A stretch of 64,000 bases of DNA from Pararhodobacter aggregans. Its GTDB lineage: Bacteria; Pseudomonadota; Alphaproteobacteria; Rhodobacterales; Rhodobacteraceae. Below the pieces are notes generated by a model that saw only the letters and a program-made list of their open reading frames with translations, had not been told where the DNA came from and ran no database searches. Below, one piece after another: positions 3,888 through 25,700 of this stretch (position 1 is its first letter; each line of letters opens with the position of its first letter). The position numbers and the translations under genes are program-made. Location: NCBI RefSeq assembly GCF_003075525.1, contig NZ_QDDR01000008.1, positions 62,001 through 126,000 of the forward strand, given 5' to 3'.

Positions 3888-4793
3888 ATGTCCGTGAAGA
3901 CCCTGACCCACCTGCAGCGGCTGGAGGCCGAGAGCATCCACATCCTGCGCGAGGTGGTGGCCGAGGCTGAAAAGCCCGTCATGCTCTATTCCGTCGGCAA
4001 GGACAGCGCCGTCATGCTGCATCTGGCGAAGAAGGCCTTCTACCCCGCGCCGCCGCCTTTCCCGCTGCTGCATGTCGATACGACCTGGAAATTCCAGGCC
4101 ATGTACCAGCTGCGCGACAAGGCCGCGCGGGATGCGGGGATGGAGCTGCTGGTCTACCAGAACCCCGAGGCCAAGGAGCGCGGCATCAACCCCTTCGACC
4201 ACGGGTCCCTGCACACCGACATGTGGAAGACCGAGGGGCTGAAACAGGCGCTGGACCTCTACGGCTTTGACGCGGCCTTCGGCGGCGCCCGGCGGGACGA
4301 GGAGAAATCCCGCGCCAAGGAGCGGGTGTTTTCCTTCCGCTCGGCCAACCACCGCTGGGATCCGAAGAACCAGCGCCCGGAACTCTGGCGGCTCTACAAC
4401 GCCCGCAAGGCCAAGGGCGAGTCGATGCGGGTCTTCCCGATCTCGAACTGGACCGAGCTGGATATCTGGCAGTACATCCACCTCGAAGGCATTGAAATCG
4501 TGCCGCTCTACTTCAGCGCCCCGCGCCCGACGGTGACGCGCGACGGGCTGATCCTGATGGTGGACGATGACCGCTTCCCGCTTCGCGAGGGCGAAGAGCC
4601 GGTGATGCGCTCGGTCCGCTTCCGGACGCTGGGCTGCTACCCCCTGACCGGCGCGGTCGAGAGTACCGCGCAGACGCTGCCCGAGGTCATTCAGGAAATG
4701 CTGCTGACCACCACCAGCGAGCGGCAGGGGCGGGCCATTGACCACGATCAGGCCGCCTCGATGGAGAAGAAGAAGCAGGAAGGGTACTTCTGA
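3888..4793 (+). CDS. cysD: Sulfate adenylyltransferase small subunit
   Basis: 301 residues, the usual CysD length. It carries the PP-loop SVGKDS at 35-40, which binds ATP and activates sulfate, then [16 protein letters not shown] and the [15 protein letters not shown] segment typical of the family. With CysN it makes adenosine 5'-phosphosulfate in the first step of assimilatory sulfate reduction. The stop overlaps the next start as TGATG, so cysD and cysNC are translationally coupled. The start ATG-3888 follows AAGGATACGGGA. Confidence 0.96.
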
Positions 4794-6694
4794 TGAGCGA
4801 TCCCGTTTACAAGACCGACGCGCTGATCGCCCAGGACATCGACGCCTATCTGGAAACCCACCAGCACAAGACCATGCTGCGCTTCATCACCTGCGGGTCG
4901 GTGGATGACGGCAAGTCGACGCTGATCGGGCGGCTGCTTTACGATTCGAAGATGATCTTCGAGGATCAGCTGGCGGCGCTGGAAGCCGACAGCAAGCGCG
5001 TCGGCACCCAAGGCGGCGAGATCGACTTCGCCCTTCTGGTCGACGGCCTCGCCGCCGAGCGCGAGCAGGGCATCACCATCGACGTGGCCTATCGCTTTTT
5101 CGCGACTGAAAAGCGCAAGTTCATCGTCGCCGACACGCCGGGCCACGAGCAATACACCCGCAATATGGTCACCGGCGCCTCGACCGCCGATCTGGCCGTG
5201 ATCCTGATCGACGCGCGCAAGGGCGTGCTGACCCAGACGCGGCGGCATTCCTATCTGGTGAACCTGTTGGGCATCAAGAACATCGTGCTGGCGGTCAACA
5301 AGATGGATCTGGTCGGCTACGATCAGGCGGTCTTCGACCGGATCGTCGCCGATTACCGGGCCTTCGCCTCCTCCATCGGCATCACGGATTTCACCGCGAT
5401 CCCGATTTCCGGCTTCAAGGGCGACAACATCACCGCCCCCTCGGCCAATACTCCCTGGTATCAGGGTCCGGCCCTGCTGCCCTATCTGGAAAGCGTCGAG
5501 GTCGATGCCAGCGCCGATCAGGCGAAGCCTTTCCGCCTGCCGGTGCAATGGGTGAACCGGCCGAACCTCGATTTCCGGGGCTTTGCCGGGATGATCGCCT
5601 CGGGCGTGGTGCGGCCGGGGGACGAGGTGCGGGTGCTGCCCTCGGGCAAGACCTCGAAAGTGGCGCGGATCGTGGCGCTGGAGGGCGACCGAGATCTGGC
5701 CGTCGCGGGCGAATCCGTGACCATCACCCTGACGGACGAGATCGATTGCTCGCGCGGGCAGGTGATCGTCGCCGCCAAATCACCCCTCGAGGTCGCCGAC
5801 CAGTTCGAGGCGGCGGTCGTCTGGATGGACGAGGTCGAGATGGTGCCGGGCCGCGCCTATTGGCTGAAGATCGGCACCCAGATTGTCAGCGCCACGATCA
5901 GCCAGCCGAAATACGAGATCAACGTCAACACGCAGGAACATCTGGCGGCCAAGACGCTGGATCTGAACGCGATTGGCGTGGCGACGGTGACGACGGACCG
6001 CGAGATCCCCTTCGCACCCTATGCCGAGAGCCGCGATCTGGGCGGGTTCATCCTGATCGACAAGCTGACCAACCGGACCGTGGGCGCCGGGATCCTGCAT
6101 TTCTCGCTGCGCCGGGCGTCGAACATCCACTGGCAGGCGACCGACATCACGCGCGACCACCACGCCTCGATGAAGCACCAGAAGCCGGCGGTGGTCTGGC
6201 TGACCGGGCTGTCCGGCTCGGGCAAGTCGACCATCGCCAACGCGCTGGAGAAAAAGCTGGCGCGGATGAACCGGCATACGTTCCTGCTGGACGGCGACAA
6301 CGTGCGGCACGGGCTGAACAAGGATCTGGGCTTTACCGAGGCCGACCGGGTGGAGAACATCCGCCGGGTGGGCGAGGTGGCGAAGCTGATGACCGATGCG
6401 GGGCTGATCGTCATCACCGCCTTCATCTCGCCCTTCCGGTCCGAGCGCGACATGGTGCGCGGCATGATGCAGCCCGGCGAATTCGTCGAGGTTTTCGTGG
6501 ATACGCCGCTCAGCGTGGCCGAGGGGCGCGACGTGAAGGGCCTTTATGCCAAGGCGCGCTCGGGGCAGCTGAAGAACTTCACCGGCATCGACAGCCCCTA
6601 TGAGGCGCCCCAGACGCCCGAACTGCGCATCGACACCACGGCAACCAGCGTGGACGAGGCCGCCGATCTGATCATCGCCCGGCTGATCCCCTGA
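4793..6694 (+). CDS. cysN/cysC: Bifunctional sulfate adenylyltransferase GTPase subunit / APS kinase
   Basis: 633 residues with two fused enzymes. The N-terminal part is an EF-Tu-like GTPase: P-loop GSVDDGKS at 35-42, [11 protein letters not shown], and NKMD; its GTP hydrolysis drives APS formation by CysD. The C-terminal ~170 residues are APS kinase, with its own P-loop GLSGSGKS near residue 472 and [10 protein letters not shown]; it phosphorylates APS to PAPS. The fusion is the NodQ/CysNC arrangement common in alphaproteobacteria. It overlaps cysD by one base. A hairpin pair follows within 70 bases. Confidence 0.96.
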
Positions 6695-6704
6695 CGATAC
6701 GGGC

Positions 6705-6759
6705 CCGGCGGGCGCTGCCTGCCGGACCCTCCCGTCCCGGTGCCGGTTTTTTCGGCGCC
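6705..6759 (+). terminator. Possible terminator after cysNC (two stems)
   Basis: CCGGCGGGC (6705-6713) pairs with GCCTGCCGG (6717-6725) with one wobble. GGTGCCG (6739-6745) pairs with CGGCGCC (6753-6759) with one wobble, around a T-rich loop. Neither is followed by a clean T-tract, so intrinsic termination is only likely, not clear. Confidence 0.4.
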
Positions 6760-6869
6760 TGCCGCGAAAAGCGGCTGCGACAGGGCAGGGCAAGCGTTTC
6801 ACGCTGGCATGCGGCGCGTCTCGGCCTAAGGTGGGGCTGAAAACGATCCGTGCGACAAGGCCCCTGCGA

Positions 6870-9800
6870 ATGGCAATCTACGCCTCGATCCACCATCTGA
6901 CGCATTACACCTATGACCGGCCGGTGACGCTGGGACCGCAGATCATCCGCCTGCGACCGGCGCCGCACAGCCGGACGCGGGTCATCTCGCATTCCTTGAA
7001 GGTCAGCCCCGGCGGGCATTTCGTGAACCACCAGCAGGACCCTTACGGGAACTGGCTGGCGCGCTTCGTCTTCCCCGACCCGGTGCGCGAGTTCAAGATC
7101 GAGGTCGATCTTGTGGCCGACATGACGGTCTACAACCCCTTCGATTTCTTCGTCGAGGAAAGCGCCGAACACTGGCCCTTCGAGTATCCCGAGGAGCTGA
7201 AAGAGGATCTTTCGATCTACCGCACGCCCGAGGCCGAGGGCCCGCTTCTGGCGCAGCTGATCGGCGGGCTCGATTTCAGCCGCCAGCGCACGGTGGACAT
7301 GCTGGTCGGGCTGAATGCCCGCATCGCGCAGGTGGTGAATTACACGATCCGCATGGAGCCCGGGGTGCAGACGCCCGAGGAGACGCTGGGCATCGGCTCG
7401 GGGTCCTGCCGCGACAGTTCCTGGCTGCTGGTGCAGGTGCTCAGGCATCTGGGATTCGCTGCGCGCTTCGTCTCGGGCTATCTGATCCAGTTGACGCCCG
7501 ATGTGAAATCGCTGGATGGCCCGTCCGGCACCGACCACGATTTCACCGACCTGCATGCCTGGGTCGAGGTGTTCCTGCCCGGCGCGGGCTGGATCGGGCT
7601 TGACCCGACTTCGGGGCTGTTCACGGGCGAAAGCCATATCCCGCTGGCCGCGACGCCGCATTACCGCAACGCGGCGCCGATCTCGGGCGGGTTCACGGCG
7701 GACCCCGGCTTGAAGACCGATTTCGCCTTCGACATGCAGATCCGCCGGGTGGCCGAGCATCCGCGCATCACCAAGCCCTTCTCGGACGAGGCCTGGGACC
7801 GGCTCAACGCGCTGGGCCGCAAGGTCGATGCCGACCTGACCGCGGGCGATGTGCGCCTGACCATGGGCGGCGAGCCGACCTTCGTCTCCATCGACGATTT
7901 CGAAAGCGCCGAGTGGAACACCGCCGCCGTCGGGCCGCAGAAGCGGGCGCTCGCCGATGACCTGATCCGCCGCCTGCGCCAGCGTTTCGCGCCGGGCGGT
8001 TTCCTGCATTACGGGCAGGGTAAATGGTATCCGGGCGAAAGCCTGCCGCGCTGGACCTTCTCGCTCTACTGGCGCCGCGACGGTCAGCCGGTGTGGAAGA
8101 ACCCCGATCTCGTGGCGCGCGAGGCGCCGGTTGCCTCGCCGGCCACCGCCGACGATGCCGGGCGCTTCATGGCGGCTTTCGCGAAGAACCTGGGCCTCGA
8201 CCAGGGCTTTGCCCAGCCCGCCTATGAGGATCCGGCGGAATGGATCCTCAAGGAAGCCAACCTGCCGCCGAATGTCTCGCCCGAGAATTCCAAGCTGAAG
8301 AACCCCGAGGACCGGGCGCGCTATGCCAAGGTGTTCAACCAGGGCCTGACCGAGCCCGCGGGCTATATCCTGCCGATCCAGCGCTGGTGGCAGGCGGCGG
8401 ACAAGCCCGCCAAATGGCGCTCGGAACTGTGGAAGCCGCGGCGCGGCAAGATCTTCCTCATTCCCGGCGACAGTCCGGTCGGCTTCCGCCTGCCGCTGGG
8501 CTCGCTGCCCTATATCCCGCCCGCGCAATATCCCTATTCCTATCCCGCCGATCCCACGGTGCCGGTCCTGCCGCTGCCCGATTTCCACGACCGGCTGGAG
8601 GCCCGCCGCCGCGCCATCGCCGAGGAAGCGCGCCGCATCGCCCAGGAAGAGGCCGAGCAGGCGATGATGGTGCCGCCGGTCACGCCCGGCCATGCGCAAG
8701 GCTTCCGCCCCGGCGCGGCCGAGGCCGAGCGCCAGCGCTACCAGCCGCAGGATGCGCATCTGGGCGACGGGGTGGATCCGGCGGGCGGCTGGGTGCGGAC
8801 CGCCATCGCCATGGAGCCCCGGGACGGGCGACTCTGCCTCTTCATGCCGCCCTGCGAAACGCTCGAGGAATACCTCGAACTCATCGCCAATGCCGAGGTG
8901 ACGGCGGCCGAGCTGAACTTGCCCCCGCATATCGAGGGCTATTCGCCCCCGCATGATCCCCGCCTCAACGTGATCCGCGTGGCCCCCGATCCGGGGGTGA
9001 TCGAGGTGAACATCCACCCCGCCCATAGCTGGGAGGATTGCGTCGCCACCACCGAGGCGATCTATGACGAAGCGCGGCAATCGCGGCTTGGCGCCGACAA
9101 GTTCATGATCGACGGTCGCCACACCGGGACCGGCGGCGGGAACCATGTGGTGGTGGGGGGCGCCACCACGCTCGACAGCCCCTTCCTGCGCCGCCCGGAC
9201 CTGCTGAAATCGCTGATCCTGATCTGGCAGCGCCATCCCGCGCTGAGTTACCTCTTCTCGGGCCTCTTCATCGGGCCGACCAGCCAGGCGCCCCGCATCG
9301 ACGAGGCGCGGCATGACACGCTTTATGAGCTGGAAATCGCGCTGGGCCAGATCGGCGATCCGGTGAACGGCGGGGCCCTGCCGCCGCCCTGGCTGGTGGA
9401 CCGGCTGCTCAGGAACATGCTGACCGATGTGACCGGCAACACCCACCGCTCGGAAATCTGCATCGACAAGCTCTATTCCCCCGATGGCCCGACCGGGCGG
9501 CTGGGGCTGGTCGAGTTCCGCGGCTTCGAAATGCCGCCCCATCCGCGCATGAGCCTCGCCCAGCAATTGCTGCTGCGCGCCATCATCGCGCGCTGCTGGA
9601 AGGCGCCGGTGCAGGGCCGTCCGGTGCGCTGGGGCACGGTGCTGCACGACCGCTTCATGCTGCCGCATTACCTGTGGGAGGATCTGCTCAGCCTGCTCGC
9701 CGACCTGCGGCTGCATGGCTACGACATGGACCCGGTCTGGTTCGAGGCCCAGGCCGAGTTCCGGTTCCCCTTCTGCGGCCAGATCGAGGCGGAAGGCGTG

Positions 9801-10316
9801 CATCTGGAGCTGAAACAGGCGCTGGAGCCCTGGCATGTGCTGGGCGAGACGGGGGCCATCGGCGGCACCGTGCGCTACACCGACAGCTCGGTCGAACGCC
9901 TGCAGGTGAAACTGACCACGCTGCATCAGGACCGCTACCGCGTCATGGTCAACCGCCGTCCGGTGCCGATGGCGCGCACCGGCACCTCGGGCGTCAGCGT
10001 CGGCGGGGTGCGGTTCAAGGCCTGGCAACCGGCGGAAAGCCTGCATCCGGTGCTGCCGGTCAACACGCCGCTGGTCTTCGATGTCTACGACGACTGGACG
10101 GGCCGGGCGATTGCGGGCTGTACCTATCACGTGGCGCATCCCGGCGGGCGCAATTACGACACCTTCCCGGTCAATGCCTACGAGGCCGAGGCCCGCAGGC
10201 TCGCGCGGTTCGAACCCCATGGCCACAGTGCCGGGTCCTATCGCCCGGCGCCCGAGACCCCGCACCCCGAGTTTCCTTTGACGCTTGACCTTCGGCGCCC
10301 GCCGGGGCTGATGTGA
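6870..10316 (+). CDS. Transglutaminase-like plus DUF2126 putative amidoligase
   Basis: 1148 residues from ATG-6870 ([18 protein letters not shown]). Residues ~1-290 are a bacterial transglutaminase/protease fold with N-terminal beta domain. The triad is Cys180 ([10 protein letters not shown]), His229 (DLHAWVEV) and Asp245 (GLDPTSG). From ~330 on it is a DUF2126-type region, beginning [11 protein letters not shown] with [17 protein letters not shown] near 750; PF09899 is described as a putative amidoligase. The product should be cytosolic, as no signal peptide is seen. It leads three same-strand genes, with a 16-base gap to the ATP-grasp gene. Related clusters (Iyer and Aravind amidoligase work) are predicted to form or cut unusual amide bonds, but the substrate is unknown. 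Confidence 0.85.
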
Positions 10317-10332
10317 GCGGCAGGAGACCCCC

Positions 10333-12747
10333 ATGCCGCCCGCCCTGCCAGATACCGAGCCGGATCTTTTCGCCGACTATGCCCGCCTGCCGGGCGTGGC
10401 CGACGAGGTGTTCGACGGCGACGGCCGGATGCGGCCGGTCTGGCAGCGCTTCGTCCAGCGTTTCGCCCGGCTGACACCGGCCGAAATCGCGGCGCGGTTC
10501 GAGCGCGGCAACCAGTATCTGCGCGACGCGGGCGTCTATTTCCGCCAGTATTCCGGCGACCCGATGGCGGAACGCGACTGGCCGCTCTCGCATCTGCCGG
10601 TGATCCTGCATGACAGCGAATGGGCGCAGATCTGCGCCGGGCTGGCCCAGCGCGCGGATCTGCTGGAGGCGGTGGTGGCCGACCTCTACGGTCCGGGAAA
10701 GCTGGTCAGCGAGGGGCATCTGCCCGCCTCGCTGATCGCCGCCTCGCCGCAATGGCTGCGGCCGATGGTGGGGGTCGAGCCGCCGGGCGGCCATTACCTG
10801 CACCTGCTGGCCTTCGAGATCGGCCGCTCGCCCGACGGCTCCTGGCTGGTGCTGGGCGACCGGATGCAGGCGCCCTCGGGCGCAGGGTTCGCGCTGGAGA
10901 ACCGCATGGCGACCGGGCGGATCTTCCCCGAGCGTTTCCCGCGGGCCTATATCCACCGGCTGGCGGGCTTTTTCGGCGAGTTCAAGGCGGCGATGGCCGG
11001 TCTCGCGCAGGCGGGCGGCGATCCGGCGGCGCGGGCGGCGATCCTGACGCCGGGCCCCTCGAACGACACCTATTACGAACAGACCTATATCGCGCGCTAC
11101 CTCGGCCTGATGCTGCTGGAAGGCGAGGATCTGCTGGTCGAGAATGGCGAGGCCAAGGTCCGCACCATCGAGGGGCCGCAGCCGCTGGGCGTGCTCTGGC
11201 GGCGGATCGACGCGGCCTTTGCCGACCCGCTGGAGCTGAACGCCGACAGCCGGATCGGCACCCCGGGACTGGTCGAGGCGGTGCGGGCGGGCAATCTTGC
11301 GCTGGTCAACGCGCTGGGCTCGGGAGTGCTGGAAATGCGGGCGATGATGGCCTTCCTGCCGCGCATCAGCGAGGTGCTGACCGGCAAGCCGCTGACCCTG
11401 CCCAATATCGCCACCTGGTGGTGCGGCGGCGCGGCCGAACGCGCCTATGTGCGCCAGAATGCGGCGCGCATGCTGATCGGGCCCGCGCTGTCCTCGGACC
11501 TGCCCTTCGACGTGGCGGCGCAGGCCGCCCCCGGCGCCAAGCCCGCCCGCGACCCCCGCGCCTGGATCGAGGCCGAGGGGCCCGCGCTGGTCGGGCAGGA
11601 GGCGGTGGCGCTGTCCACCACCCCCGCCTGGGTCACCGCCCCGGGCGAGACGCTGGCCGAGGGGCGGATCCTGCCGCGCCCCATGACCATCCGGGTCTTC
11701 GCCGCCCGCACGCCGCAGGGCTGGCGCTTCATGAAGGGCGGCTATGCGCGGATCGGGCATTCGGGCGATGCCTCGGCGCTGGCGATGCAGAAGGGCGGCT
11801 CGGTCGCCGATGTCTGGATCGTCTCGGACCGGCCGGTGCCGCAGATCTCCATGTCGCCGCGCGCCGACGAGCCCTTCCGCCGCGCCAGCCCCGGCGTGGT
11901 GCCCGCGCGGGCTGCCGACAACCTCTATTGGCTGGGCCGCTATGTCGAGCGGACCGAGGACGCGATCCGCCTGATCCGCGCCTATCACCTGCGGCTGGCG
12001 GCGACCGACAACCCGGCCGATCCGCTGCTGCGACGGCTCAGGGCCTTTCTCAGCGGTTATGGCATCGACGTCGCCCAGCCGATGCCCGAGGCGCTGCTGC
12101 ACCGGATCGGCGCGGCGCGGCTCTGCGCGGCCAAGGTGCGCGACCGCTTTTCCGTCGATGGCTGGGCGGCGATCACCGACCTCGACCGCACGGCGCGCAG
12201 CACCTTCAGCAAGATCGAGCCCGGCGACGACGCGGCCCGCGCCATGGGTATCCTGGTGCGCAAGATCACCGGCTTTTCGGGGCTGGTGCAGGACAACATG
12301 TACCGCTTCCAGGGCTGGCGCTTCCTGTCGATGGGCCGGGCGCTGGAACGGGCCGATGCGCTGACTGCGCTGCTGCACGGTCTGACCGATGCCGAGGCGC
12401 CCGAGGGGGCGCTGGACCTCGCGGTCGAGGTCGCCGACAGCGTCATCACCCATCGCCGCCGCTATTCGGTCGAGACCTCGCGCAACACGGTCGTGGATCT
12501 GCTGGCGCTCGATGCGGACAACCCGCGCTCGGTCCTGTTCCAGATCCGGGCGCTGCGCGAACAGGCCGCGGCCCTGCCGGGCGCGATGGAGAACGGCCGC
12601 CTCGCGCCGCTCTCGCGCGCCATCGTGCCGATCGACGCGCTCCTCAGCGTCACCGCGCCCGAGAGGATCCGCCCGGCCCATCTGCTCAGGCTCAGGGCGC
12701 AGCTTTCCGGCATTTCCGACCTGATCACCGCCGCCTACCTGCGGTAA
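10333..12747 (+). CDS. Circularly permuted ATP-grasp fused to alpha-E domain
   Basis: 804 residues. Residues ~1-480 match the circularly permuted type 2 ATP-grasp family, with PGPSNDTYYEQTYIARYLG, DLLVENGEAKVRTIEGP and NALGSGVLEMRAMMAF as landmarks. From ~520 an alpha-E domain follows (AADNLYWLGRYVERTEDAIR, then a helical bundle). The two are separate genes in many genomes and fused here. ATP-grasp enzymes join a carboxylate to an amine or thiol with ATP. The alpha-E helical domain has no known activity. Placed between two transglutaminase genes, it probably forms the amide that those enzymes modify or break. Spacing to the next gene is nine bases, which indicates one transcript. Confidence 0.87.
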   Translation: MPPALPDTEPDLFADYARLPGVADEVFDGDGRMRPVWQRFVQRFARLTPAEIAARFERGNQYLRDAGVYFRQYSGDPMAERDWPLSHLPVILHDSEWAQICAGLAQRADLLEAVVADLYGPGKLVSEGHLPASLIAASPQWLRPMVGVEPPGGHYLHLLAFEIGRSPDGSWLVLGDRMQAPSGAGFALENRMATGRIFPERFPRAYIHRLAGFFGEFKAAMAGLAQAGGDPAARAAILTPGPSNDTYYEQTYIARYLGLMLLEGEDLLVENGEAKVRTIEGPQPLGVLWRRIDAAFADPLELNADSRIGTPGLVEAVRAGNLALVNALGSGVLEMRAMMAFLPRISEVLTGKPLTLPNIATWWCGGAAERAYVRQNAARMLIGPALSSDLPFDVAAQAAPGAKPARDPRAWIEAEGPALVGQEAVALSTTPAWVTAPGETLAEGRILPRPMTIRVFAARTPQGWRFMKGGYARIGHSGDASALAMQKGGSVADVWIVSDRPVPQISMSPRADEPFRRASPGVVPARAADNLYWLGRYVERTEDAIRLIRAYHLRLAATDNPADPLLRRLRAFLSGYGIDVAQPMPEALLHRIGAARLCAAKVRDRFSVDGWAAITDLDRTARSTFSKIEPGDDAARAMGILVRKITGFSGLVQDNMYRFQGWRFLSMGRALERADALTALLHGLTDAEAPEGALDLAVEVADSVITHRRRYSVETSRNTVVDLLALDADNPRSVLFQIRALREQAAALPGAMENGRLAPLSRAIVPIDALLSVTAPERIRPAHLLRLRAQLSGISDLITAAYLR

Positions 12748-12756
12748 GGGGCGCGC

Positions 12757-13653
12757 ATGCTCTACGACATCACCCTTGCCATCGATTACGATTACGCGGC
12801 GACCTCGGACCGCTCGCGGACGCTGATGCGCCTTCTGCCCTGCGACCTGCCCGGTGAGCAGCGGGTGATCGCCCGGCGGCTCGGCATTCTGCCGCGCCCC
12901 GATGAACGGCGCGAGGGCGAGGATTTCTTCGGCAATGCGACGACGGCGGCGGTCTGGCACCAGCCGATTTCCAACCTGCGGCTGACCCTGGCGCTGCGGG
13001 TCGAGCGGCTGGCGCGGATCGAGGGGGCGGATCTCTCGCCCTTGCTGGCCGAGCTGCCCGGGGCGGTGGCCGATCTCGCCGACCTCGGCCCCGCCTCGCC
13101 GCATCATTTCACCGGCGCCTCGGCCCGGGTGCCCGCGGTGCCCGCCATCGCCGCCTTCGCCCGCAAGGTGGTGAGCCCCGGCATGACCGCCCGTCAGGCG
13201 ATCGAGGTGCTGGGACGGGCGCTGCACAAGGCGATGCGCTTCGACAGCGCCGCCACCTCGGTCGAGACGGGGCCGGAGGAGGCTTTCGCGCAGAAATCCG
13301 GCGTCTGTCAGGATTTCGCCCATGTGATGATCGCGGGGCTGCGCGCGGTGGGCATCCCGGCGGGCTATGTCTCGGGCTTCCTGCGCACCTTGCCGCCGCC
13401 CGGCCAGCCGCGGCTGGAGGGCGCCGATGCGATGCATGCCTGGGTCCGGGCCTGGGCCGGGCCGGTCATGGGCTGGATCGAGTTCGATCCGACCAACAAC
13501 CAGCACGCGGGCGAGGATTACGTGGTCGTGGCGCGCGGGCGCGATTACGGCGATGTGGCGCCGGTAATGGGCGCGATGCGCACCGCGGGCGGGCAGGAGA
13601 CCCGGCACGCGGTCGACATGATCCCGGTTCTGGAGAAATCGGGCGCGGCCTGA
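12757..13653 (+). CDS. Transglutaminase family protein (small)
   Basis: 298 residues with the N-terminal bacterial transglutaminase-like domain and a complete papain-like triad: Cys184 in KSGVCQDFAH, His227 in AMHAWVRAW and Asp244 in WIEFDPTNN. This COG1305-type family usually works as a protease or amidase/ligase rather than a classical crosslinker. It has no signal peptide. It closes the three-gene cluster, and the next gene is on the other strand, so no Anbu-type proteasome-like peptidase follows, although one often accompanies these genes elsewhere. Substrate unknown. Confidence 0.87.
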   Translation: MLYDITLAIDYDYAATSDRSRTLMRLLPCDLPGEQRVIARRLGILPRPDERREGEDFFGNATTAAVWHQPISNLRLTLALRVERLARIEGADLSPLLAELPGAVADLADLGPASPHHFTGASARVPAVPAIAAFARKVVSPGMTARQAIEVLGRALHKAMRFDSAATSVETGPEEAFAQKSGVCQDFAHVMIAGLRAVGIPAGYVSGFLRTLPPPGQPRLEGADAMHAWVRAWAGPVMGWIEFDPTNNQHAGEDYVVVARGRDYGDVAPVMGAMRTAGGQETRHAVDMIPVLEKSGAA

Positions 13654-13681
13654 GCGGGATTAGCCGGACCCTAAGCCTGCT

Positions 13682-14635
13682 TCAGACCAACGGAAGCCCG
13701 CCGATCCGCCGCAGCCTGCCCGAGCGCACCAGACCGACCCCGTTCTCGATGAAGGCGCGCACCGCGCTGGAGCGGTCGGCGTCCTGCGCCGTCAGGAAAC
13801 CCATGCGCATGGCCCGGATCGGCCCCTCGATCGGCACGGCGCGCACCGGGTTACCATCGGGCGAGATATCGCTCAGCGGCCGGACATTGACGATGGAATA
13901 GCCGAAGTCATTGGCCACCATCGAGCGCATCACCGCCATGTCGCGGGTTCGTTCGGCGATCAGCGGCCGGGCATGGATCGCCTCGAAGAAGGACAGGAAA
14001 TAATCGGCGCTGAGCGGCAGATCCAGCAGCACCATCGGGTGATCCTTCAACTGGTCGATGCTGACGCTCTCGCAATCGGCCAGCGGATGGCCCGCGCCCA
14101 TCAGCGCGATGGGCGGCAGATGCAGGAGGGGGGTGAATTGCAGATCGGCGGGCAGGTCCAGATCATAGGTCAGCGCCACGTCGATCTCGGACCGCCGCAG
14201 CGCGCTGAAGAGTTCGACCTGGTTCAGCTCCTGCTGACGGACGCGGACCTCGGGGAAACGCTCTTCGAAGCCGCGGCGCATGGCGGGCAGGACCAGTTGC
14301 GCGAAGGTCAGCAGGCAGCCCACGGACAGGGGCCCCCGCACCTTGCCCGAGATGTCGCCGGCGATGTCGCGCAGCGCCCCGGCCTCGCGCAACACGACCC
14401 GGGCCTGTTCCAGCATCTCGCGCCCGGCCTGGGTCAGCGAGAGGCCCTGCGCGTGCTGGCGCACGAAAAGCGGCAGGCCGAATTCCTGCTCCAGCTGGGC
14501 AATCGCGGTCGAGATCGAGGGCGAAGAGACATTGATCCGCTGCGCCGCCCGGGCGATGCTGCCCGCCTCGCCCACGGCCACGAAATACTCAAGCTGGCGC
14601 AGCGTGTAGCGCAGGGGCGGCGCGCCCCGGCTCAT
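13682..14635 (-). CDS. LysR-family transcriptional regulator
   Basis: 317 residues from ATG-14635. The N-terminal winged helix reads LRQLEYFVAVGEAGSIARAA with INVSSPSISTAIAQLEQEFG as recognition helix, followed by a periplasmic-binding-type effector domain. It starts by an ATGA overlap with the DUF1028 stop and is therefore the third gene of a RidA-DUF1028-LysR unit. A LysR-like dyad lies between that unit and the divergent flavin oxidoreductase, so it probably controls both. The inducer cannot be read. Confidence 0.9.
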   Translation of the reverse strand: MSRGAPPLRYTLRQLEYFVAVGEAGSIARAAQRINVSSPSISTAIAQLEQEFGLPLFVRQHAQGLSLTQAGREMLEQARVVLREAGALRDIAGDISGKVRGPLSVGCLLTFAQLVLPAMRRGFEERFPEVRVRQQELNQVELFSALRRSEIDVALTYDLDLPADLQFTPLLHLPPIALMGAGHPLADCESVSIDQLKDHPMVLLDLPLSADYFLSFFEAIHARPLIAERTRDMAVMRSMVANDFGYSIVNVRPLSDISPDGNPVRAVPIEGPIRAMRMGFLTAQDADRSSAVRAFIENGVGLVRSGRLRRIGGLPLV

Positions 14636-15306
14636 GCGTCCCCCGGGACGCCGTAGGAGGGGGCGGCGCGGGGATCGAGCGCCCGCTGCACATAGGCCGC
14701 CATCTGCGGGGCGTAGATTTCCCAAGCCTTTGCAACGGCCTCGATGGGGCAATCCTCGGTCCAGTCGCAGCGCAGATCGGCGACCGGCCAGGGCATCCGG
14801 TCGACCATCAGCAGGCCCGCGGAATGCACCGGCCCCGCCTCGCCCCCCGCGGCCAGCCCCGCCCGCAGCGCCGCGATCAGCCGGTCGCCCAAGGGGCCGT
14901 CGCTGCCTTCGAACCCCGCAACCATCGCCGCGGGCACGCCGTCATTGGCCAGCAGATTGCCGCCCGAGGCGCAATCGACCCCCTGCGCCGAGGTCCAGAT
15001 CCCCAGCGCGCGGGCCCCCGAATGCACCGCCGTCCCGCCCTGCGCATCGACCGCCAGGATCTGCCGGTAGTCGATGAAGGGCGCGCGGTGGGTGACCTCG
15101 GCCACCGCCTCGGCCGCAGACATGCCGCCCGCCATCAGGTCCAGCACCTGCGGCCCCAGCGCCGGGTCCGTCACGTTCTGCGAGGCGACGGCGCCGACGC
15201 CCGCGCGGGCATGGGCGCAGCGCGCGGCAACCGCGGGGGAGGAGGACGAGATCACCATCCCGAACATCCCCGTTTCAGCGCAGCGGGCCACCAGCGAGAA
15301 GGTCAT
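14632..15306 (-). CDS. DUF1028 protein (Ntn-hydrolase-like)
   Basis: 224 residues beginning MTFSLVARCAETGMFGM, with SSSPAVAARCAHARAGVGAVASQN and the GGNLLA segment typical of DUF1028. The family is predicted to resemble N-terminal nucleophile hydrolases, but I know of no proven reaction. DUF1028 genes often sit beside RidA-type genes in amino-acid or imine catabolic clusters, as here, with a four-base gap to the RidA stop. It may hydrolyse an amide made or released by the neighbouring oxidoreductase pathway; that is inference. Confidence 0.82.
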   Translation of the reverse strand: MTFSLVARCAETGMFGMVISSSSPAVAARCAHARAGVGAVASQNVTDPALGPQVLDLMAGGMSAAEAVAEVTHRAPFIDYRQILAVDAQGGTAVHSGARALGIWTSAQGVDCASGGNLLANDGVPAAMVAGFEGSDGPLGDRLIAALRAGLAAGGEAGPVHSAGLLMVDRMPWPVADLRCDWTEDCPIEAVAKAWEIYAPQMAAYVQRALDPRAAPSYGVPGDA

Positions 15307-19136: not shown

Positions 19137-20024
19137 TCAGCGCCTCGCACGCGGGTCGAGGACATCGCGCAGCCCGTCGCCCAGAAGGTTGAAGCCGAAG
19201 ACGGCAAGGAACATGGCAAGGCCCGGGAAGACCGCGGTCCACCAGAAATCCGGCATGTAGTTGCGGGCGATGGACAAGAGCGTCCCCCATTCCGGGGTCG
19301 GCGGCCGCACGCCGATGCCGATGAAGCCCAGCGCCGCGACGGTCAGGATGGCGAAACCCATGTCGAGCGACATCTTGACGATGATCGGCGAGACGATGTT
19401 GGGCAGGATGTGGCGGAAGAGGACCCGGGCCGGGCTGGCGCCGATGGCGCGGGCGGCGGCGACATAGACCTCTTCGCGGGCCTGCAACACCTCGCCCCGG
19501 ACCAGCCGCGCATAGCCCGGCCACCATGACAGGGCGATGGCGATGATCATGTTGACGAAGCCGGGGCCGAGGGCGGCGGCCACCGCCATGGCCAGGATCA
19601 GGCTGGGGATGGTCAGCATGAGGTCGGAAAACCGCATCAGCACATCGTCGATCCAGCCGCCGTTGAACCCGGCCAGGGCGCCGACCACCACGCCCAGCAC
19701 GGTGCCGATCAGCACCACGGCAAAGCCCGCCGCGACCGAGACCGGGGTGCCGGCCATGACCAGCGACAGCACGTCCTGGCCCAGTTCGTTGGTGCCGAAC
19801 GGATGGGCGAGGGACGGGGCCTGGAACCGCTCGGCGGTGTTCAGGCCGCCCCGCACGTGCTCGGGGTAGGGGGCGAGCAGGTTGCCGAACAGGGTGAAGA
19901 ACAGCACCACGGCGACCATGGTCGCGCCCACCATCGACAGGCGGCTCTGGCGGAAGCGGTAGAAGGCGCGGCGCGAGGCCTCGGCCCGGGCGCTGCGGCG
20001 GCTGTCCTGGGACACGTCGGTCAT
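19137..20024 (-). CDS. Peptide-type ABC permease (DppC-like)
   Basis: 295 residues with an N-terminal helix, five or so more membrane segments, and the inner-loop motif AARAIGASPARVLFRHILP that contacts the ATPases. PFGTNELGQDVLS upstream is typical of DppC/OppC. It overlaps the previous permease gene by ATGA, so the two are coupled. It is one half of the membrane channel for the peptide-type importer. Confidence 0.93.
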   Translation of the reverse strand: MTDVSQDSRRSARAEASRRAFYRFRQSRLSMVGATMVAVVLFFTLFGNLLAPYPEHVRGGLNTAERFQAPSLAHPFGTNELGQDVLSLVMAGTPVSVAAGFAVVLIGTVLGVVVGALAGFNGGWIDDVLMRFSDLMLTIPSLILAMAVAAALGPGFVNMIIAIALSWWPGYARLVRGEVLQAREEVYVAAARAIGASPARVLFRHILPNIVSPIIVKMSLDMGFAILTVAALGFIGIGVRPPTPEWGTLLSIARNYMPDFWWTAVFPGLAMFLAVFGFNLLGDGLRDVLDPRARR

Positions 20025-21028
20025 TGGTAGCGGACCTTGGGATTGATGAGGCCGTAAAGCACGTCGATGACGATATTGGCGGTGACGAAGAGGACCCCGA
20101 TCACCAGCGCCACGCTGACCACCGGCATGAAATCCTGGGACACGATGGCGGAGGTGGCGTAAAGCCCGATGCCCGGCCAGTCGAAGACAGTCTCGACCAG
20201 CACCGTGCCCCCCAGCAACCAGCCGAAATAGAGGCCGATGACGGTGAGCGAGGCCGAGATCGCGTTCCGCAGCACGTATTTGAAGACGATGAGGCGGGGT
20301 GAGAGGCCCAGCGCCCGGGCGGTGGTGACGTAATCCTGGTGCATCACCTCGATGGTCGAGGCCCGCATCATCCGCAGGATCGTGGCCAGCGGCGACAGCG
20401 ACATGGCGATGGCGGGCAGGGCCAGGTAGCGCATGGCGGTCCAGAAGGACTCCCAGTCACCGGCGAGGATCGAGTCGATGGTGTAAAAGCCGGTCACGCC
20501 CGGCGGCGGGTCGAAGATGATCGGGAAGCGTCCGCCCAGCGGCAGCCACATCAGCCACATGGCGAAGCAGAGCTGCAACAGCAGCCCGAGGAAGAAGCGC
20601 GGCATGGAGATGGCGGCGACGGACAGGATGTTGGACAGATAATCCGGCCATTTGTTGCGCCAGACGGCGGCCATCAGCCCGGCCGGGATGCCGACGACGA
20701 TGGCCAGCAACAGGGCCGAGAAGACCAGCTCCAGCGTCGCGGGCAGATAGGCGGCAAGGTCGGTTGCCACGGGACGGCGGGAGAAGAGCGAGGTGCCGAA
20801 ATCGCCCTGCACCAGCCCCGAGAGATAGGTCCAGTACTGGACCCACAGCGGCTGATCGAGGCCGAATTCGCGCGCCAGCGCCTCGATCTCGGCGCGGGTG
20901 GCGTTGGGACCGGCGGCCAGGCCGACCGGGTCGCCCGGCAGGACGCGGGCGATGACGAACATGATGATCGTCATGCCGATCAGCACCGGCAGGATCAGCA
21001 GGATCCGCCTCAGGATGAACCGCAGCAT
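20021..21028 (-). CDS. Peptide-type ABC permease (DppB-like)
   Basis: 335 residues with an N-terminal membrane anchor (ILRRILLILPVLIGMTIIMF), the DPVGLAAGPNAT segment usual after the first helix, and the coupling loop ARALGLSPRLIVFKYVLRNA. It is the first permease after the substrate-binding protein gene. A strong hairpin sits in the 60-base gap between the two, so it may be expressed at a lower level than the binding protein. Confidence 0.93.
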   Translation of the reverse strand: MLRFILRRILLILPVLIGMTIIMFVIARVLPGDPVGLAAGPNATRAEIEALAREFGLDQPLWVQYWTYLSGLVQGDFGTSLFSRRPVATDLAAYLPATLELVFSALLLAIVVGIPAGLMAAVWRNKWPDYLSNILSVAAISMPRFFLGLLLQLCFAMWLMWLPLGGRFPIIFDPPPGVTGFYTIDSILAGDWESFWTAMRYLALPAIAMSLSPLATILRMMRASTIEVMHQDYVTTARALGLSPRLIVFKYVLRNAISASLTVIGLYFGWLLGGTVLVETVFDWPGIGLYATSAIVSQDFMPVVSVALVIGVLFVTANIVIDVLYGLINPKVRYQ

Positions 21029-21057
21029 TGCCTCGGGGCCTCGCGTTGGGAAGGGGC

Positions 21058-21081
21058 GGGCGCGGGTCTGAACCCGCGCCC
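21058..21081. other. Hairpin between binding-protein and permease genes
   Basis: GGGCGCGGGT (21058-21067) pairs exactly with ACCCGCGCCC (21072-21081) around CTGA, just past the binding-protein stop. There is no T-tract. Stems in this place often protect the 3' end of the binding-protein message, which keeps it in excess over the membrane parts. Confidence 0.55.
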
Positions 21082-21088
21082 GGAAGGG

Positions 21089-22663
21089 TTACAGCGACAG
21101 CGGCCAGGCCTCGATCGCGTTCGAGGCGACGGGGGTGAAGGCAAAGCCCTGCACCGCGTCGCGCATCCCCAGACGGCGCTTTTCGAGGACGCCGAAGATG
21201 TCGGGGCAATCCGCGACCAGCAATTCCTGCAACTGGCCGTAGATCTCCACCCGGCGGGCGGGGTCGATCTCGGTCCGGCCGGCCTCGATCAGCGCGTCGG
21301 CCTCGGGGTTGTGGTAGACCGCGTTCTGCCAGCCGCCATTGCGCGAGGAATGATAGGCGGCATAGGCGATGTTGTCGGGATCGCCGTAATTGGCCGTCTG
21401 ATAGACCGGGAAGAGGTCGGGGAAGGTCTCGGGCGATTGGCAGGCCGCCACCATGTCCGGCCAGTTCATCGGCGTGATGTCCAGCTGGATGTTCAGCGCC
21501 TGCAGGCTGTCGAGCATGATGAGCGCCCAGCGGCGTTGCTGTTCCAGCCCGTTCACATGCACCATGCGCAGGGTGATCCCGCCCTCGGGCGTGTCGGTCA
21601 TCGCCAGATGCTCGCGCGCCAGATCGAGGTTGGTGCGGTAGACCTCCAGCTCGGGGTTGTGGCCGAGGATGCCGTTGGGCAGCGGACCGGTCATCAGCTC
21701 GGCATAGCCCGAGGCATCGAGCATCGCCTGGTAATTCATGGCATAGGCCACGGCCTTGCGCATGTTGATGTCGGCCATCGGGCCCTGTTCGGTGTTCATC
21801 TTGATCGAGAAGGTGCGGTATTCCGGCTCGATCACCCGCACCACGCCCGGCGCGCCGTCGAGCGCGTCCATGTCTTCCGAGGTCAGGTCGACCGAGATAT
21901 GCACCTCGCCCCGTTGCAGCATCAGCCGCTGTGTCGAGCTTTCGCGCACGATCTGCCAGATCACCCCGTCGAGGTTGCCGCCGCCGGTCTGCCAGGCGGT
22001 GTCGGCGCGCTGCAGCTGATAGAGCGCGCCCGCTTCGGCGCGGCGCAGCTTGAAGGGGCCCGAGCCCGCGACATTGGCCTGCAGATAGGTGGTGCTGTCG
22101 TCCCCGCCCTCATTGGCCTCGGCAATCGCTTTCGAGGCGATGAAGATCCACGGGATCACCTGCAGGAAGGCGGCGAAGGGCGTCGCCAGGTCAAAGCGCA
22201 CGGTATGGGCGTCGACGGCGGTCACGCCCTCGGGCTCGACGATGCCGCGGATCATCCAGCTGTTGCCGCGGGCGAGCCTGAGCGCGCGCTGGTAGGAAAA
22301 GACCACATCCTCGGCGGTGACCGGGCTGCCGTCGTGGAAGACCGCCGCCGGGTTCAGCATGAAGGTATAGGTCTTGCCGTCCGCGCTGACCTCCCAGCTG
22401 TCGGCCAGGGCAGGCACCGGTTCCGGCGGGTTGCCCGCGACGCGGACCAGGGGCTCGTAGGTGTTGCGCAGGAAGAAGCTGGCCGAATAGCCGGTCGCCG
22501 TATGCGGGTCGTAGTTCGGGATATCCTGGGTCGAGGCGATAATCAGGATGTTCCGGCCCGACTGGGCGAAGATCTGCTGCGGGAAGCTGGCGGCAGCAAG
22601 TCCGGCGCCGCTGAGGGCCAGAAAGCTGCGCCGCGAGAGGGTCTTGAGGTCGATGGTGGACAT
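21089..22663 (-). CDS. Extracellular solute-binding protein, peptide/nickel family 5, Tat signal
   Basis: 524 residues from ATG-22663, with GGAGA upstream. The N-terminus reads SRRSFLALSG followed by a hydrophobic stretch and FAQS, a twin-arginine (Tat) signal peptide with cleavage near FAQ. Family 5 features follow: DSWEVSADGKTYTFMLNPAAVFHDGSPVTA-type core segments in order, then AYAMNYQAM. It catches a peptide, hydantoin-like or related substrate in the periplasm for the permease and ATPase genes downstream. It lies downstream of the hydantoinase gene on the same strand. The specificity is inferred from context only. Confidence 0.93.
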   Translation of the reverse strand: MSTIDLKTLSRRSFLALSGAGLAAASFPQQIFAQSGRNILIIASTQDIPNYDPHTATGYSASFFLRNTYEPLVRVAGNPPEPVPALADSWEVSADGKTYTFMLNPAAVFHDGSPVTAEDVVFSYQRALRLARGNSWMIRGIVEPEGVTAVDAHTVRFDLATPFAAFLQVIPWIFIASKAIAEANEGGDDSTTYLQANVAGSGPFKLRRAEAGALYQLQRADTAWQTGGGNLDGVIWQIVRESSTQRLMLQRGEVHISVDLTSEDMDALDGAPGVVRVIEPEYRTFSIKMNTEQGPMADINMRKAVAYAMNYQAMLDASGYAELMTGPLPNGILGHNPELEVYRTNLDLAREHLAMTDTPEGGITLRMVHVNGLEQQRRWALIMLDSLQALNIQLDITPMNWPDMVAACQSPETFPDLFPVYQTANYGDPDNIAYAAYHSSRNGGWQNAVYHNPEADALIEAGRTEIDPARRVEIYGQLQELLVADCPDIFGVLEKRRLGMRDAVQGFAFTPVASNAIEAWPLSL

Positions 22664-22683
22664 TCGGGTCTCCGTGTTGGGGT

Positions 22684-22706
22684 CCGGCCGGGTCGGCACC
22701 GGCCGG
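22684..22706. other. Hairpin upstream of binding-protein gene
   Basis: CCGGCCGG (22684-22691) pairs with CCGGCCGG (22699-22706) around seven bases, in the 59-base gap between the hydantoinase stop and the binding-protein start. It could be an RNA processing site or a weak terminator inside the operon. Confidence 0.45.
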
Positions 22707-22722
22707 TTGGGATGGTCGGATC

Positions 22723-25700
22723 TCAGGCCGTTGCGGCGAGTTCTGCGCGCGCCGTCAGGGCCGAAGGGTGATAGCGGCGGACATAGTCGAGGGTGACGTA
22801 GCCCAGCCTCAGGTCGTGCTCGACAAGCGCGGGGTCGCGGTCGGCCGGATCGCCGAACCCGGCGCCTCCGCCCAGCATCAGCTCCACCCGTTCGCCGGGC
22901 GTGCGCAGTTCCACCAGCTTGCCGGTGCCGCAATCCTCGATCAGCCCGTCATCGGGGCCGATCACCCGCCCGCGCGCCATCCCCCCCGGCTGGCCGCCGA
23001 AGAGGCCCGGGATCGGGTTGTTGACGCCCTCGGGGAAGACCGAGGCGAGGGTGGTGCGCCCGTCGGTGGTCAGCTTGCGGAACACGACCCGCTGGCCCAG
23101 ACCGCCGCGATGCCGTCCGGCGCCGCCGGTGTCGGGGACGAAGGCCTTTTCCTCGATCAGGATCGGCGCGCGGCTTTCCATCAGCTCGATCGAGGTATTG
23201 GCGGCCGAGGTCGGCCACAGCAGCGCCGAATGCCCGTCGCCCCGGTCCGATCCCCCCTGTCCGCCGCCGCAGAACAGCATGTCGGAGTAGAAGGCGCCGG
23301 TGGCATCCTGCCCGTAGACGGTCGAGGCCACGGCGAGCCCGGTGAAGGCCTGCACATCCTCGGGCCGGGCGCCGGCCAGCGCCTGGAAGATGTTGGGCGC
23401 CAGATACCAGCCGGTCCGGGTGCGGATATTGACCGAGGCCGGATAGGTGCAGTTCAGGATCGAGCCCTCGGGCGCCTTGACGGTGAAGGGCCGGTAGCAG
23501 CCCGCATTGCCGCGAACCTTCGGCGTCAGCATGCATTTCAGCGGATAGGTCGCATGCGCGGCGGTGTAGTTCAGCGTCGAGTTCAGCCCCCCCTGCGCCA
23601 GCTGCGGCGGGGCGCCGTCGAAGTCGATGACCATGGCGTCACCCTCGACCTTGATGGCGACCGGATAGGTCATCACCTCGCCCAGCGGGTTGTTGGTGAT
23701 GGTGCCGGTATAGGTGCCATCGGGAATGGCCCGCACCGCGTCGCGCATCGCGCCCTCCGACAGGTCCTGCACCACCTGCGCCAGCGCGCCCAGATCCTCC
23801 ATCCCGTATTCGGCCATGAAGGCTTCCAGCCGCTCGGCCCCGATCACGTTCGCCGTGACGAAGGACTGGATGTCGCCGATCACCTGCTCGCCGTTGCGGA
23901 CGTTCTGGCCGATCATGCGGAACAGCGTCTCGTTGGGCTTGCCCGCCTCGAACAGCTTCATCGGCGGGATCTGCAGGCCTTCCTCGTAGATCTCGCGCGC
24001 TTTCAGCGAATCCTTGGTGCCGCCGATGTCCGAGACATGGCCGACGGTCCCCAGCAGCCCCACCAGCCGCCCGTTGCGGAAGGCGGGCGTGACGATGGCC
24101 AGATCGAAGAGGTGCCCGGCGCAGAGCCAGGGGTCGTTGGTGATGAGCACGTCGCCCGGCTGCAGCGTCTCGGCCGGGTAGCGTTCCAGCAGAGCCTTGA
24201 CCGCGCGGGGCAGGGTCAGGTTGAAGACCGGCATGGCGCGCGGGCTGTGGGCCAGCGTCTCGCCCAATGGATCCAGCAATTCGCAGGCGAAATCCTGCGC
24301 TTCCGAGATGACCAGCGAAAAGGCGGTGCGGCAGACCGTCTGCCACATCTCCTCGGCCACGTTCACCAGACGGCTCCACATGATCTCCAGCCCGATGGGG
24401 TCGGCCTGGATCAGCGTGACCGCATCCTCGCGACTCATGCCCGCCGGGATCCGGGTTTCGGCCTGCTGGGTCGCGGCGACGCGGATGCAGAGGTTCAGCG
24501 CATTGTCGACCTTCACGCTGTCGCGCGGGCCGATGATCGTGGTCGCCTCGCGCTCCTCGACGATGGCGGGGCCGTCGAAGGTATCGCCCGGGACCAGCGC
24601 ATAGCGGTCATAGACCTTGGCCTCGAAATCGCCATCCGCGAACCAGGCGCGGCGGGTGCCCTTGACGCGCCCCTCGCTGCCCGCACCGCCGGCGGCGCCG
24701 GTGACGGAAATCGCGGGCTGCGGCCCGACGCAGCGCAGGCGGAAGTTCACCGCCTCTATCCGCGCGCCGTCGAAGACCTTGGTGTAGCGCCCCTCATAGG
24801 CCTTGGCGAAAGCCTCGCGGATCGCGGGCAGGCTGTCGGCGCCGATGGGACCCGGCGGCAGGGCCACGGAAATGTCGTGCATCTGGCCGACGAGGCGCAT
24901 GTCGGCGTGGACCTCGACCTTGATGTCGGCCGCCTTCACCCCGGCGGCGGTCAGGTGGCCGCGGCCCTCCTCCTCCATCGCCTGCAACAGCGCGTTGAGC
25001 GGCTCCGCGTCGAAATCCCCCGTCAGTTCAACGCGGTGCGAGCGGACGCCTTCAAAGCTGAGGGGCGCCACCAGAAAGCCCAATGCCGAGGCCGCGCCCG
25101 AGGCCGGGGGAATGATGACCTCGCCCACACCCATGGCGCGCGCCACGTTCACCGCATGCGCGGGACCGGCGCCGCCGAAGGCGACCATGGCGTAATTGCG
25201 GGGATCCTTGCCCTTTTCGATCAGATGGACCCGGGCCGAGGCGGCCATGTTCTCGGCCACCACCTTGTGGATGCCGAGCGCCGCTTCCTCGATCCCCAAG
25301 CCCAAGGGCGCGGCGACGGCGCCGACCGCGCGCCGCGCGGCCTCCAGATCCAGCGTCATGCGACCGCCGAGGAAGAAGCCGGGGTCGTAGTACCCCAGCA
25401 CCAGGTTCGCGTCGGTGACGGTCGGCTGCAGGCCGCCCAGGCCATAGCAGGCCGGGCCGGGGTCCGAGGCCGCCGAGTGGGGCCCGACCTTCAGCAAACC
25501 CACCTCATCGAGCGCGGCGATGGACCCGCCGCCCGCGCCGATCTCGATCATGTCGATCACCGGCGCCTTGATCGGCAGGCCGGAACCCTTGGTGAAGCGA
25601 TGGACCCGCGCGGCTTCCATCATCGGGGCGATTTCGGCGCGGTTGTCCTCGATCATGCAGGCCTTGGCCGTGGTGCCGCCCATGTCGAAGGAGATGACAT

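Follow-up and report, generated by a model that had tools for sequence, protein, structure and literature searches.

The trio and its closest described relatives

Large proteins that join an N-terminal transglutaminase-like (TG) domain to a C-terminal domain of the carboxylate-amine ligase type, such as Rv2566 of Mycobacterium tuberculosis, have been placed among the carboxylate-amine ligases of the glutamine synthetase (GS) fold, and formation of peptide-like amides has been predicted for this TG-DUF2126 architecture; the portion of that report available to us gives no measured reaction for these proteins (PMC2588565). Here we describe three adjacent genes, hereafter the trio, in a 64,000-nucleotide stretch of DNA from Pararhodobacter aggregans (the window; assembly GCF_003075525.1, contig NZ_QDDR01000008.1, positions 62,001 to 126,000). 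The first encodes a TG-DUF2126 protein, and the second encodes an ATP-grasp domain fused to alpha-E that looks catalytically dead and is most likely a pseudo-enzyme. Rv2566 itself is taken here to carry DUF2126. No difference in architecture was found between the trio and the Rv2566-type proteins, and the two are alike in having no small Pup-like gene nearby, as far as the available portion of PMC2588565 reports. The Anbu operon, as described in the accessible text of PMC5666114 and PMC6376114, shares ATP-grasp, alpha-E and TG-like domains with the trio, which differs from it in having DUF2126, a fused and degenerate ATP-grasp/alpha-E protein, and no Anbu gene. An ATP-grasp protein and a transglutaminase-fold protein are also found together in the Rlo system of Pseudomonas aeruginosa, for which 'alpha-E' goes unmentioned in the available main text of PMC12239564. 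No substrate or product of alpha-E or DUF2126 proteins turned up in the literature examined.

The three open reading frames (ORFs) lie on the + strand of the window at 6870-10316, 10333-12747 and 12757-13653, separated by gaps of 16 and 9 bases; ORF1 is taken to start at the ATG at 6870, with a GTG at 6831 as an alternative candidate start. Pfam assigned Bact_transglu_N, Transglut_core and DUF2126 to ORF1, CP_ATPgrasp_2/1 and Alpha-E to ORF2, and Bact_transglu_N and Transglut_core to ORF3, and no NCBIfam model matched any of the three at E <= 0.001. The product of ORF1 (1148 amino acids), delimited by Pfam and a 74-row alignment, begins with a TG-like part (residues 6-246, 6885-7607) that is supported by PF08379, PF01841 and Foldseek, the best match of the latter being 3isr (E 4e-12), and its C180/H229/D245 triad is invariant in 81/81 aligned rows. 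ORF3 encodes a stand-alone TG-like protein of 298 amino acids with the triad C184/H227/D244, invariant in 77/77 aligned rows.

The tight spacing, the intact Cys-His-Asp triads and the family names, all proposed in an initial annotation made from the letters of this DNA, were borne out, and its link to peptide-like amide chemistry agrees with the published prediction (PMC2588565). Its description of one gene as a fused ATP-grasp and alpha-E stands as a domain call but not as a catalytic ATP-grasp, since the residues argue otherwise. The annotation also regarded the trio as a candidate for an undescribed system, which does not hold: both the TG-DUF2126 architecture and the chemistry predicted for it are already in print (PMC2588565), and in a sample of the family to which the window belongs, 89 of 295 genomes carry DUF2126. 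The trio is one instance of a widespread cassette for which formation of peptide-like amides had been predicted.

The ATP-grasp domain of ORF2 lacks the expected catalytic motifs

In the 804-amino-acid product of ORF2, a predicted pseudo-ligase on the basis of Pfam, alignments and a predicted structure, a circularly permuted (CP) ATP-grasp part (residues 89-474, 10597-11754) is fused to Alpha-E (residues 524-803, 11902-12741; profile match of 184 bits). The predicted structure is good (predicted local distance difference test score, pLDDT, of 88) and has the glutathione-synthetase fold. Its best match is 3n6x, the stand-alone CP ATP-grasp of Methylobacillus flagellatus (E 1e-27, 28% identity), which was matched by sequence too. 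Eukaryotic glutathione synthetase, glutathionylspermidine synthetase and YgiC also match by fold (E about 1e-10 to 1e-4) at about 9-13% identity, with the glutathione synthetases coming next after 3n6x. Whereas 3n6x keeps EDN, the Lys and the GGYG loop, ORF2 is without them, and the ATP/Mg motifs expected from the other enzymes are absent as well.

Aligned with the ATP-grasp of an Anbu operon found elsewhere in the same genome, ORF2 has GDR (residues 175-177, 10855-10863) instead of EDN, and the Lys and Gly-rich loop of KEVHGSGGYG are gone, the corresponding residues 383-390 (11479-11502) reading GPALSSDL. Where the stand-alone family conserves EDN, two Lys and a Gly-rich loop, as expected of an active CP ATP-grasp, ORF2 has GDR, R336, G383 and no Gly-rich loop. 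From the literature on glutathione synthetase and glutathionylspermidine synthetase, we take the Glu/Asn pair and the two Lys to be the Mg and ATP binders of this fold.

A scan of genome contigs with the DUF2126 region confirmed at least 587 relatives, the best 80 of which were analysed as related loci. Fused proteins were aligned as 111 rows, comprising 77 from these 80 closely related loci, one from the window, and 33 from elsewhere that represent the wider diversity and include Beta- and Gammaproteobacteria and an acidobacterium. Numbered as in the Anbu-operon ATP-grasp, residues E189, D190, N191, R193, K351, K398, D458 and N489 and the GGYG loop were present in 19/19 stand-alone ATP-grasps, a set that remained after removal of one fused protein cut by a contig end (L047). 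The same eight residues were found in 28 stand-alone rows from DUF2126 genomes, partly the same proteins, with the loop Tyr changed in two. Among the fused rows, E189, N191, D458 and N489 each occurred in 0/111, K351 in 1/111 and K398 in 7/111, and no row had both Lys together. Their replacements are conserved, with Arg at 191 in 107/111 and Gly at 199 in 110/111; the loop region is variable, and many other residues that are invariant in the intact family are still present in ORF2-type proteins. Of the 41 fused proteins examined, 38-40 retain the Glu-Arg pairs of alpha-E (E539-R540 and E672-R673 in ORF2) while the ATP-grasp motifs are lost, indicating that the loss is selective. In Acidithiobacillus caldus (L137), the genes downstream of DUF2126 encode ATP-grasp and alpha-E separately, and that ATP-grasp is intact.

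Because the motif loss is selective and common to every fused protein seen, we read ORF2 as a pseudo-enzyme under constraint, its ATP-grasp, as judged from sequence, being most likely catalytically dead. ORF2 would then most likely act as a scaffold, holding substrate or partner proteins instead of catalysing. Given the loss of the expected ATP/Mg residues, the fused ATP-grasp would probably show no activity in an assay of ATP use, and the ATP user of the trio is most likely DUF2126 in ORF1. A narrow literature search found no mention of the degenerate ATP-grasp in print. Some pseudokinases are known to be rewired rather than dead, and ORF2 might be a parallel case in which a different nucleotide is bound by the ATP-grasp fold or other residues have taken over. 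The conserved replacements at 191 and 199 and the many shared invariant residues would fit such a protein, but the loss affects the EDN side and the Lys/Gly-loop side jointly, and free variation in the loop region is not what a conserved new active site would show, so that we consider rewiring rather unlikely.

In a maximum-likelihood tree built from a chosen subset of 94 rows (88 different), all 45 stand-alone rows fell on one side of a branch with support of 100/100, in a tree whose bootstrap had not fully settled and which had only a midpoint root. Five fused rows from loci without DUF2126 formed no single group, most of them falling among other fused rows, and L114 was too divergent or damaged for placement (end branch 5.3).

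DUF2126 is the putative ligase of the trio

The DUF2126 part of ORF1 (PF09899; residues 282-1142, 7713-10295) scored 1303 bits against a curated cut-off of 27 and covered positions 4-826 of the 826-position profile. Residues E335, E712, N714, H759, R860, R877, E882, R884 and E887 were invariant in both a 74-row and a 40-row alignment and are candidate active-site residues. With ORF2 predicted to be inactive, DUF2126 would be the sole plausible ATP-dependent ligase of the trio, of the glutamine-synthetase type and joined to a TG-like thiol domain, and ORF3 would supply a second TG-like thiol enzyme that transfers or cuts amides.

The invariant residues bear a partial resemblance to the GS motifs given in the available portion of PMC2588565. 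E335 might correspond to the Glu of the strand-1 motif Ex[EH], with Thr at +2, outside the strict pattern; H759, in GTGGGNH, aligns with GSGMH of GS at the strand-4 motif [HD]x[NH], with Val at +2, likewise outside the strict pattern; and E882-F-R884-G-F-E887 fits the strand-6 motif Ex[RK]x2D apart from its last position, where Glu replaces Asp. HHalign of DUF2126 against 25 GS sequences gave E 0.012 and a score of 30.1, compared to a maximum of 28.4 in 60 column-shuffled controls, and in this 25-sequence GS alignment the stretches of E712 and H759 fall on GS motifs.

Several observations weigh against the assignment to GS-type ligases. HHalign against 11 GS sequences gave E 0.13, equal to that of an ATP-grasp control (E 0.13), and there was no signal against GCS2 (E 0.32). 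The DUF2126 profile found no PDB sequence at E <= 10. The structural model of ORF1 is of mediocre quality (pLDDT 70); its only three fold matches at E <= 0.001 were all to the transglutaminase-like 3isr, with a GS-family match appearing only at rank 50 (E 0.16). In the HHalign set-up used, even the accepted relatives GS and GCS2 pair at just 5.8% probability. The ExR motif was out of register in a wide, low-confidence HHalign alignment that was left unused. The view of DUF2126 as a GS-type ligase comes mainly from the literature, and our comparisons lend it weak support.

An intact ATP-grasp and Anbu are encoded on another contig

When searched, the assembly that contains the window (5.08 Mb, completeness rated at 100%) gave two matches to alpha-E, four to Bact_transglu_N and two to the Proteasome family. 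A complete operon of ATP-grasp, alpha-E, transglutaminase and Anbu is located on contig C2 at 380-384 kb, and its ATP-grasp is intact; the trio, on contig C8, has no Anbu gene. The counterpart of this stand-alone ATP-grasp in Yersinia bercovieri is reported to release phosphate (PMC6376114). The second Proteasome-family match, on C3, is presumably HslV. The translated Anbu protein of C2 begins MTYCVG. Counting along it shows Thr, Asp and Lys at the positions given for Anbu of Yersinia bercovieri (Thr1, Asp17 and Lys32/33; PMC6376114). The genome-wide search for Anbu that the initial annotation had proposed was thus positive, and the intact ATP-grasp relative in this second operon shows where to seek the activity missing from ORF2. 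The annotation's statement that no Anbu, carrier peptide or export gene is adjacent to the trio is correct for the immediate neighbours (cysD and cysNC upstream on the same strand, and a convergent LysR gene downstream), with the Anbu operon located elsewhere in the genome. Elsewhere in this genome, contig C11 carries two adjacent TG-like ORFs (L010, 3663-5725), with no ATP-grasp or alpha-E in the fetched stretch.

We determined the co-occurrence of these families in a class sample of 190 genomes and a phylum sample of 249, which overlap by a few genomes. DUF2126 was present in 29/190 and 71/249, respectively, and is an accessory yet common trait, while alpha-E was present in 70/190 and 132/249, so that both families occur in a large share of the sampled phylum genomes. 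All DUF2126 genomes have alpha-E (29/29 and 71/71). Of the 29 in the class sample, 21 have an Anbu match, compared to 54/190 in the sample overall, and 27 have a motif-complete stand-alone ATP-grasp, one of them (G095) with a TGA inside the matched stretch; in G127 (74% complete) the stand-alone ATP-grasp is cut by the contig, with EDNR kept. The fused protein is present in 22/29, and one further genome, G124, is ambiguous. Anbu was rejected as an obligatory partner, given that 8/29 DUF2126 genomes, three of them rated 100% complete, had no match to the single-protein query, which could miss a very divergent Anbu. The same eight genomes speak against an Anbu gene elsewhere being the sole partner of the trio, which the initial annotation had named as a result that would overturn its proposal.

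Physical linkage of the modules was also observed. A stand-alone ATP-grasp, alpha-E or Anbu gene lies in the same stretch as DUF2126 in 12/36 loci outside the 80-locus set and in 2/80 inside it, counts that exclude lone ATP-grasp calls in L096 (a short overlapping frame) and in L047 and L056 (fused copies truncated by the contig end). Plasmids of Caballeronia and Enterobacter carry the genes in the order ATP-grasp, alpha-E, TG-DUF2126, fused protein and TG, and such layouts suggest joint action of the two modules even when they are apart, as in this genome. A cassette in which one ligase is likely live and another likely dead, and whose intact partner usually lies at another place in the genome, may account for the difficulties of single-operon biochemistry. 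On an Acidithiobacillus caldus megaplasmid (L137, 1-14171), DUF2126, two ORFs with Anbu-like matches and ntrC/glnL genes occur in the same stretch.

What was directly observed here is the gene content of the locus, the motif loss, the second operon and the co-occurrence of the modules. We interpret the trio as an accessory to the module of stand-alone ATP-grasp and alpha-E. Specifically, we give an even chance to the reading that the trio is the DUF2126 module of the Anbu/alpha-E systems predicted to form amides, with ORF2 as a pseudo-enzyme, and that it acts with the C2 operon. The trio would probably act in trans with the intact ATP-grasp/alpha-E/transglutaminase/Anbu operon, and the joint system would make, and later cleave, a peptide-like amide when nitrogen is scarce. 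A number of the genome comparisons count against so close an association. G099 (84% complete), one of the 29 DUF2126 genomes, yielded no stand-alone ATP-grasp on direct search; six of the 29 (two of them <90% complete) have no fused protein; and the fused protein occurs without DUF2126 in G012, G044, G057, G073 and probably G069. The fused protein and DUF2126 are each found without the other and are therefore not strictly bound. Moreover, the hypergeometric values for co-occurrence are tiny, but both they and the counts ignore kinship.

If the trio instead works alone, ORF1 would make the amide and ORF3 would process it, with Anbu and the intact C2 ATP-grasp belonging to a separate pathway. 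The location of the two operons on different contigs of this genome, the DUF2126 genomes that have no Anbu match, and the lack of a stand-alone module in the fetched stretch of 24/36 and 78/80 DUF2126 loci all favour this arrangement. It is harder to reconcile with the intact stand-alone ATP-grasp found in nearly all of the 29 DUF2126 genomes and placed beside DUF2126 in a third of the 36 wider-set loci (12/36), and we regard it as rather unlikely.

Published expression data point to nitrogen limitation

The joint reading, in which the trio acts with the C2 operon, assigns it to nitrogen scarcity on the strength of expression data from related clusters. In Burkholderia cenocepacia H111, genes I35_5080-5083 have values of -8.2, -9.4, -9.4 and -6.0 in an ntrC-mutant table and are described as encoding a DUF404/DUF407 protein, a DUF403 protein, a transglutaminase protein and a large transglutaminase protein (PMC5491218); Alpha-E was formerly called DUF403, and the CP ATP-grasp DUF404/407 (PMC3597751). 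From its description and the gene order in Burkholderia stagnalis (L139), I35_5083 would be a TG-DUF2126 protein. In Pseudomonas putida, nitrogen limitation raised PP_2686-2688 of the Anbu operon 11- to 37-fold and Anbu itself (PP_2685) 1.1- to 4.8-fold (PMC7801951), and PP_2685 and PP_2688 were up on nitrate compared to ammonium (PMC8050072). Because the Burkholderia cluster of the same families is NtrC-dependent (PMC5491218), the trio probably has a role under nitrogen limitation. In three related loci, urease-like genes (identified by eye) lie next to the trio, with a UreG-like gene about 130 bases upstream, a further hint at nitrogen metabolism.

Some of the evidence runs counter to this assignment. 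The identity of I35_5083 depends on description and gene order, and I35_5084 and I35_5085, the expected site of the fused protein, are not named in the available main text of PMC5491218. A promoter scan found no sigma-70-like site in 6500-14000 and no -24/-12-type site in the gap upstream of ORF1, and in the window as a whole the -24/-12-type pattern had 53 matches compared to a chance mean of 69, that is, below chance.

The same expression data, namely the NtrC dependence of the Burkholderia cluster and the induction of the P. putida Anbu operon, would also suit a mainly catabolic function, in which thiol amidases and a ligase recover nitrogen from peptides or amides during starvation, and the TG-like fold occurs in hydrolases too. 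We nevertheless consider this unlikely, since a conserved ATP-dependent ligase family, if the prediction for DUF2126 holds, is hard to fit into a purely degradative pathway.

Returning to the reading in which the trio acts with the C2 operon, we tentatively propose an extended version, whose probability we place somewhat below even. The fused protein would be a conserved pseudo-ligase of wide distribution that arose, perhaps once, from the stand-alone lineage and whose Mg/ATP pocket was repurposed, as marked by the near-universal Asn-to-Arg change. It would enable the DUF2126 ligase to act on what the intact ATP-grasp/alpha-E module has prepared as substrate, and the two cassettes, DUF2126 and Anbu, would together constitute one amide-forming machine of nitrogen starvation, in which Anbu is optional.

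The conserved unit consists of three genes

The best 80 related loci are nearly all of the Rhodobacteraceae type, and Rhodobacter capsulatus is among the species that hold the trio (L022). Gene order is kept, with an ORF2 match downstream of DUF2126 in 79 loci and an ORF3 match in 76; the four exceptions (L047, L056, L077 and L089) are all at a contig end, and the gaps have medians of 15 and 4 bases. No widely conserved flanking gene was seen among the 18 largest clusters of neighbours within 7 kb of 79 loci, and we therefore take the unit to be the three genes. The largest cluster, ABC-transporter ATPases as judged by eye from one example, was present in 22/79 loci at mixed positions and on mixed strands, and the other clusters shown in at most six.

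These clusters also contained no conserved small acceptor gene, although ORFs of fewer than 40 codons and very short matches would escape detection. This bears on a further alternative, protein tagging of the Pup kind, in which ORF1 would attach a peptide or an amino acid to proteins and Anbu would remove or degrade it. The Pup ligase PafA belongs to the same GS-fold superfamily (PMC2588565), and Anbu is a proteasome homologue. Against tagging stand the missing acceptor gene, the fact that the available portion of PMC2588565 likewise reports none for the family, and the inactivity of purified Anbu on three standard peptide substrates (PMC6376114); we judge it very unlikely.

Two copies of the cassette were found in unexpected settings. 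A contig labelled Enemella evansiae (Actinomycetota; L068, 9155-15929) has the trio too, in a copy that the tree places with Rhodovulum and Salipiger, reflecting contamination or recent transfer. A 90-kb plasmid of Enterobacter roggenkampii (L136, 5763-14954) carries the five-gene version, with IS6-type transposases in the same stretch, and from this copy the cassette may be mobile between genomes. No DUF2126 match was confirmed in viral contigs.

In the window itself, cysD and cysNC (3888-6694) lie directly upstream of the trio on the same strand. Both were near the trio in just 3/80 loci (L012, L013 and L017), and they were treated as local neighbours rather than functional partners. Beyond the LysR gene, the - strand carries a DUF1028 gene and genes for an oligopeptide-type ABC transporter (OppB/OppC-like permeases and a family 5 binding protein) at 14632-15306 and 19137-22933.

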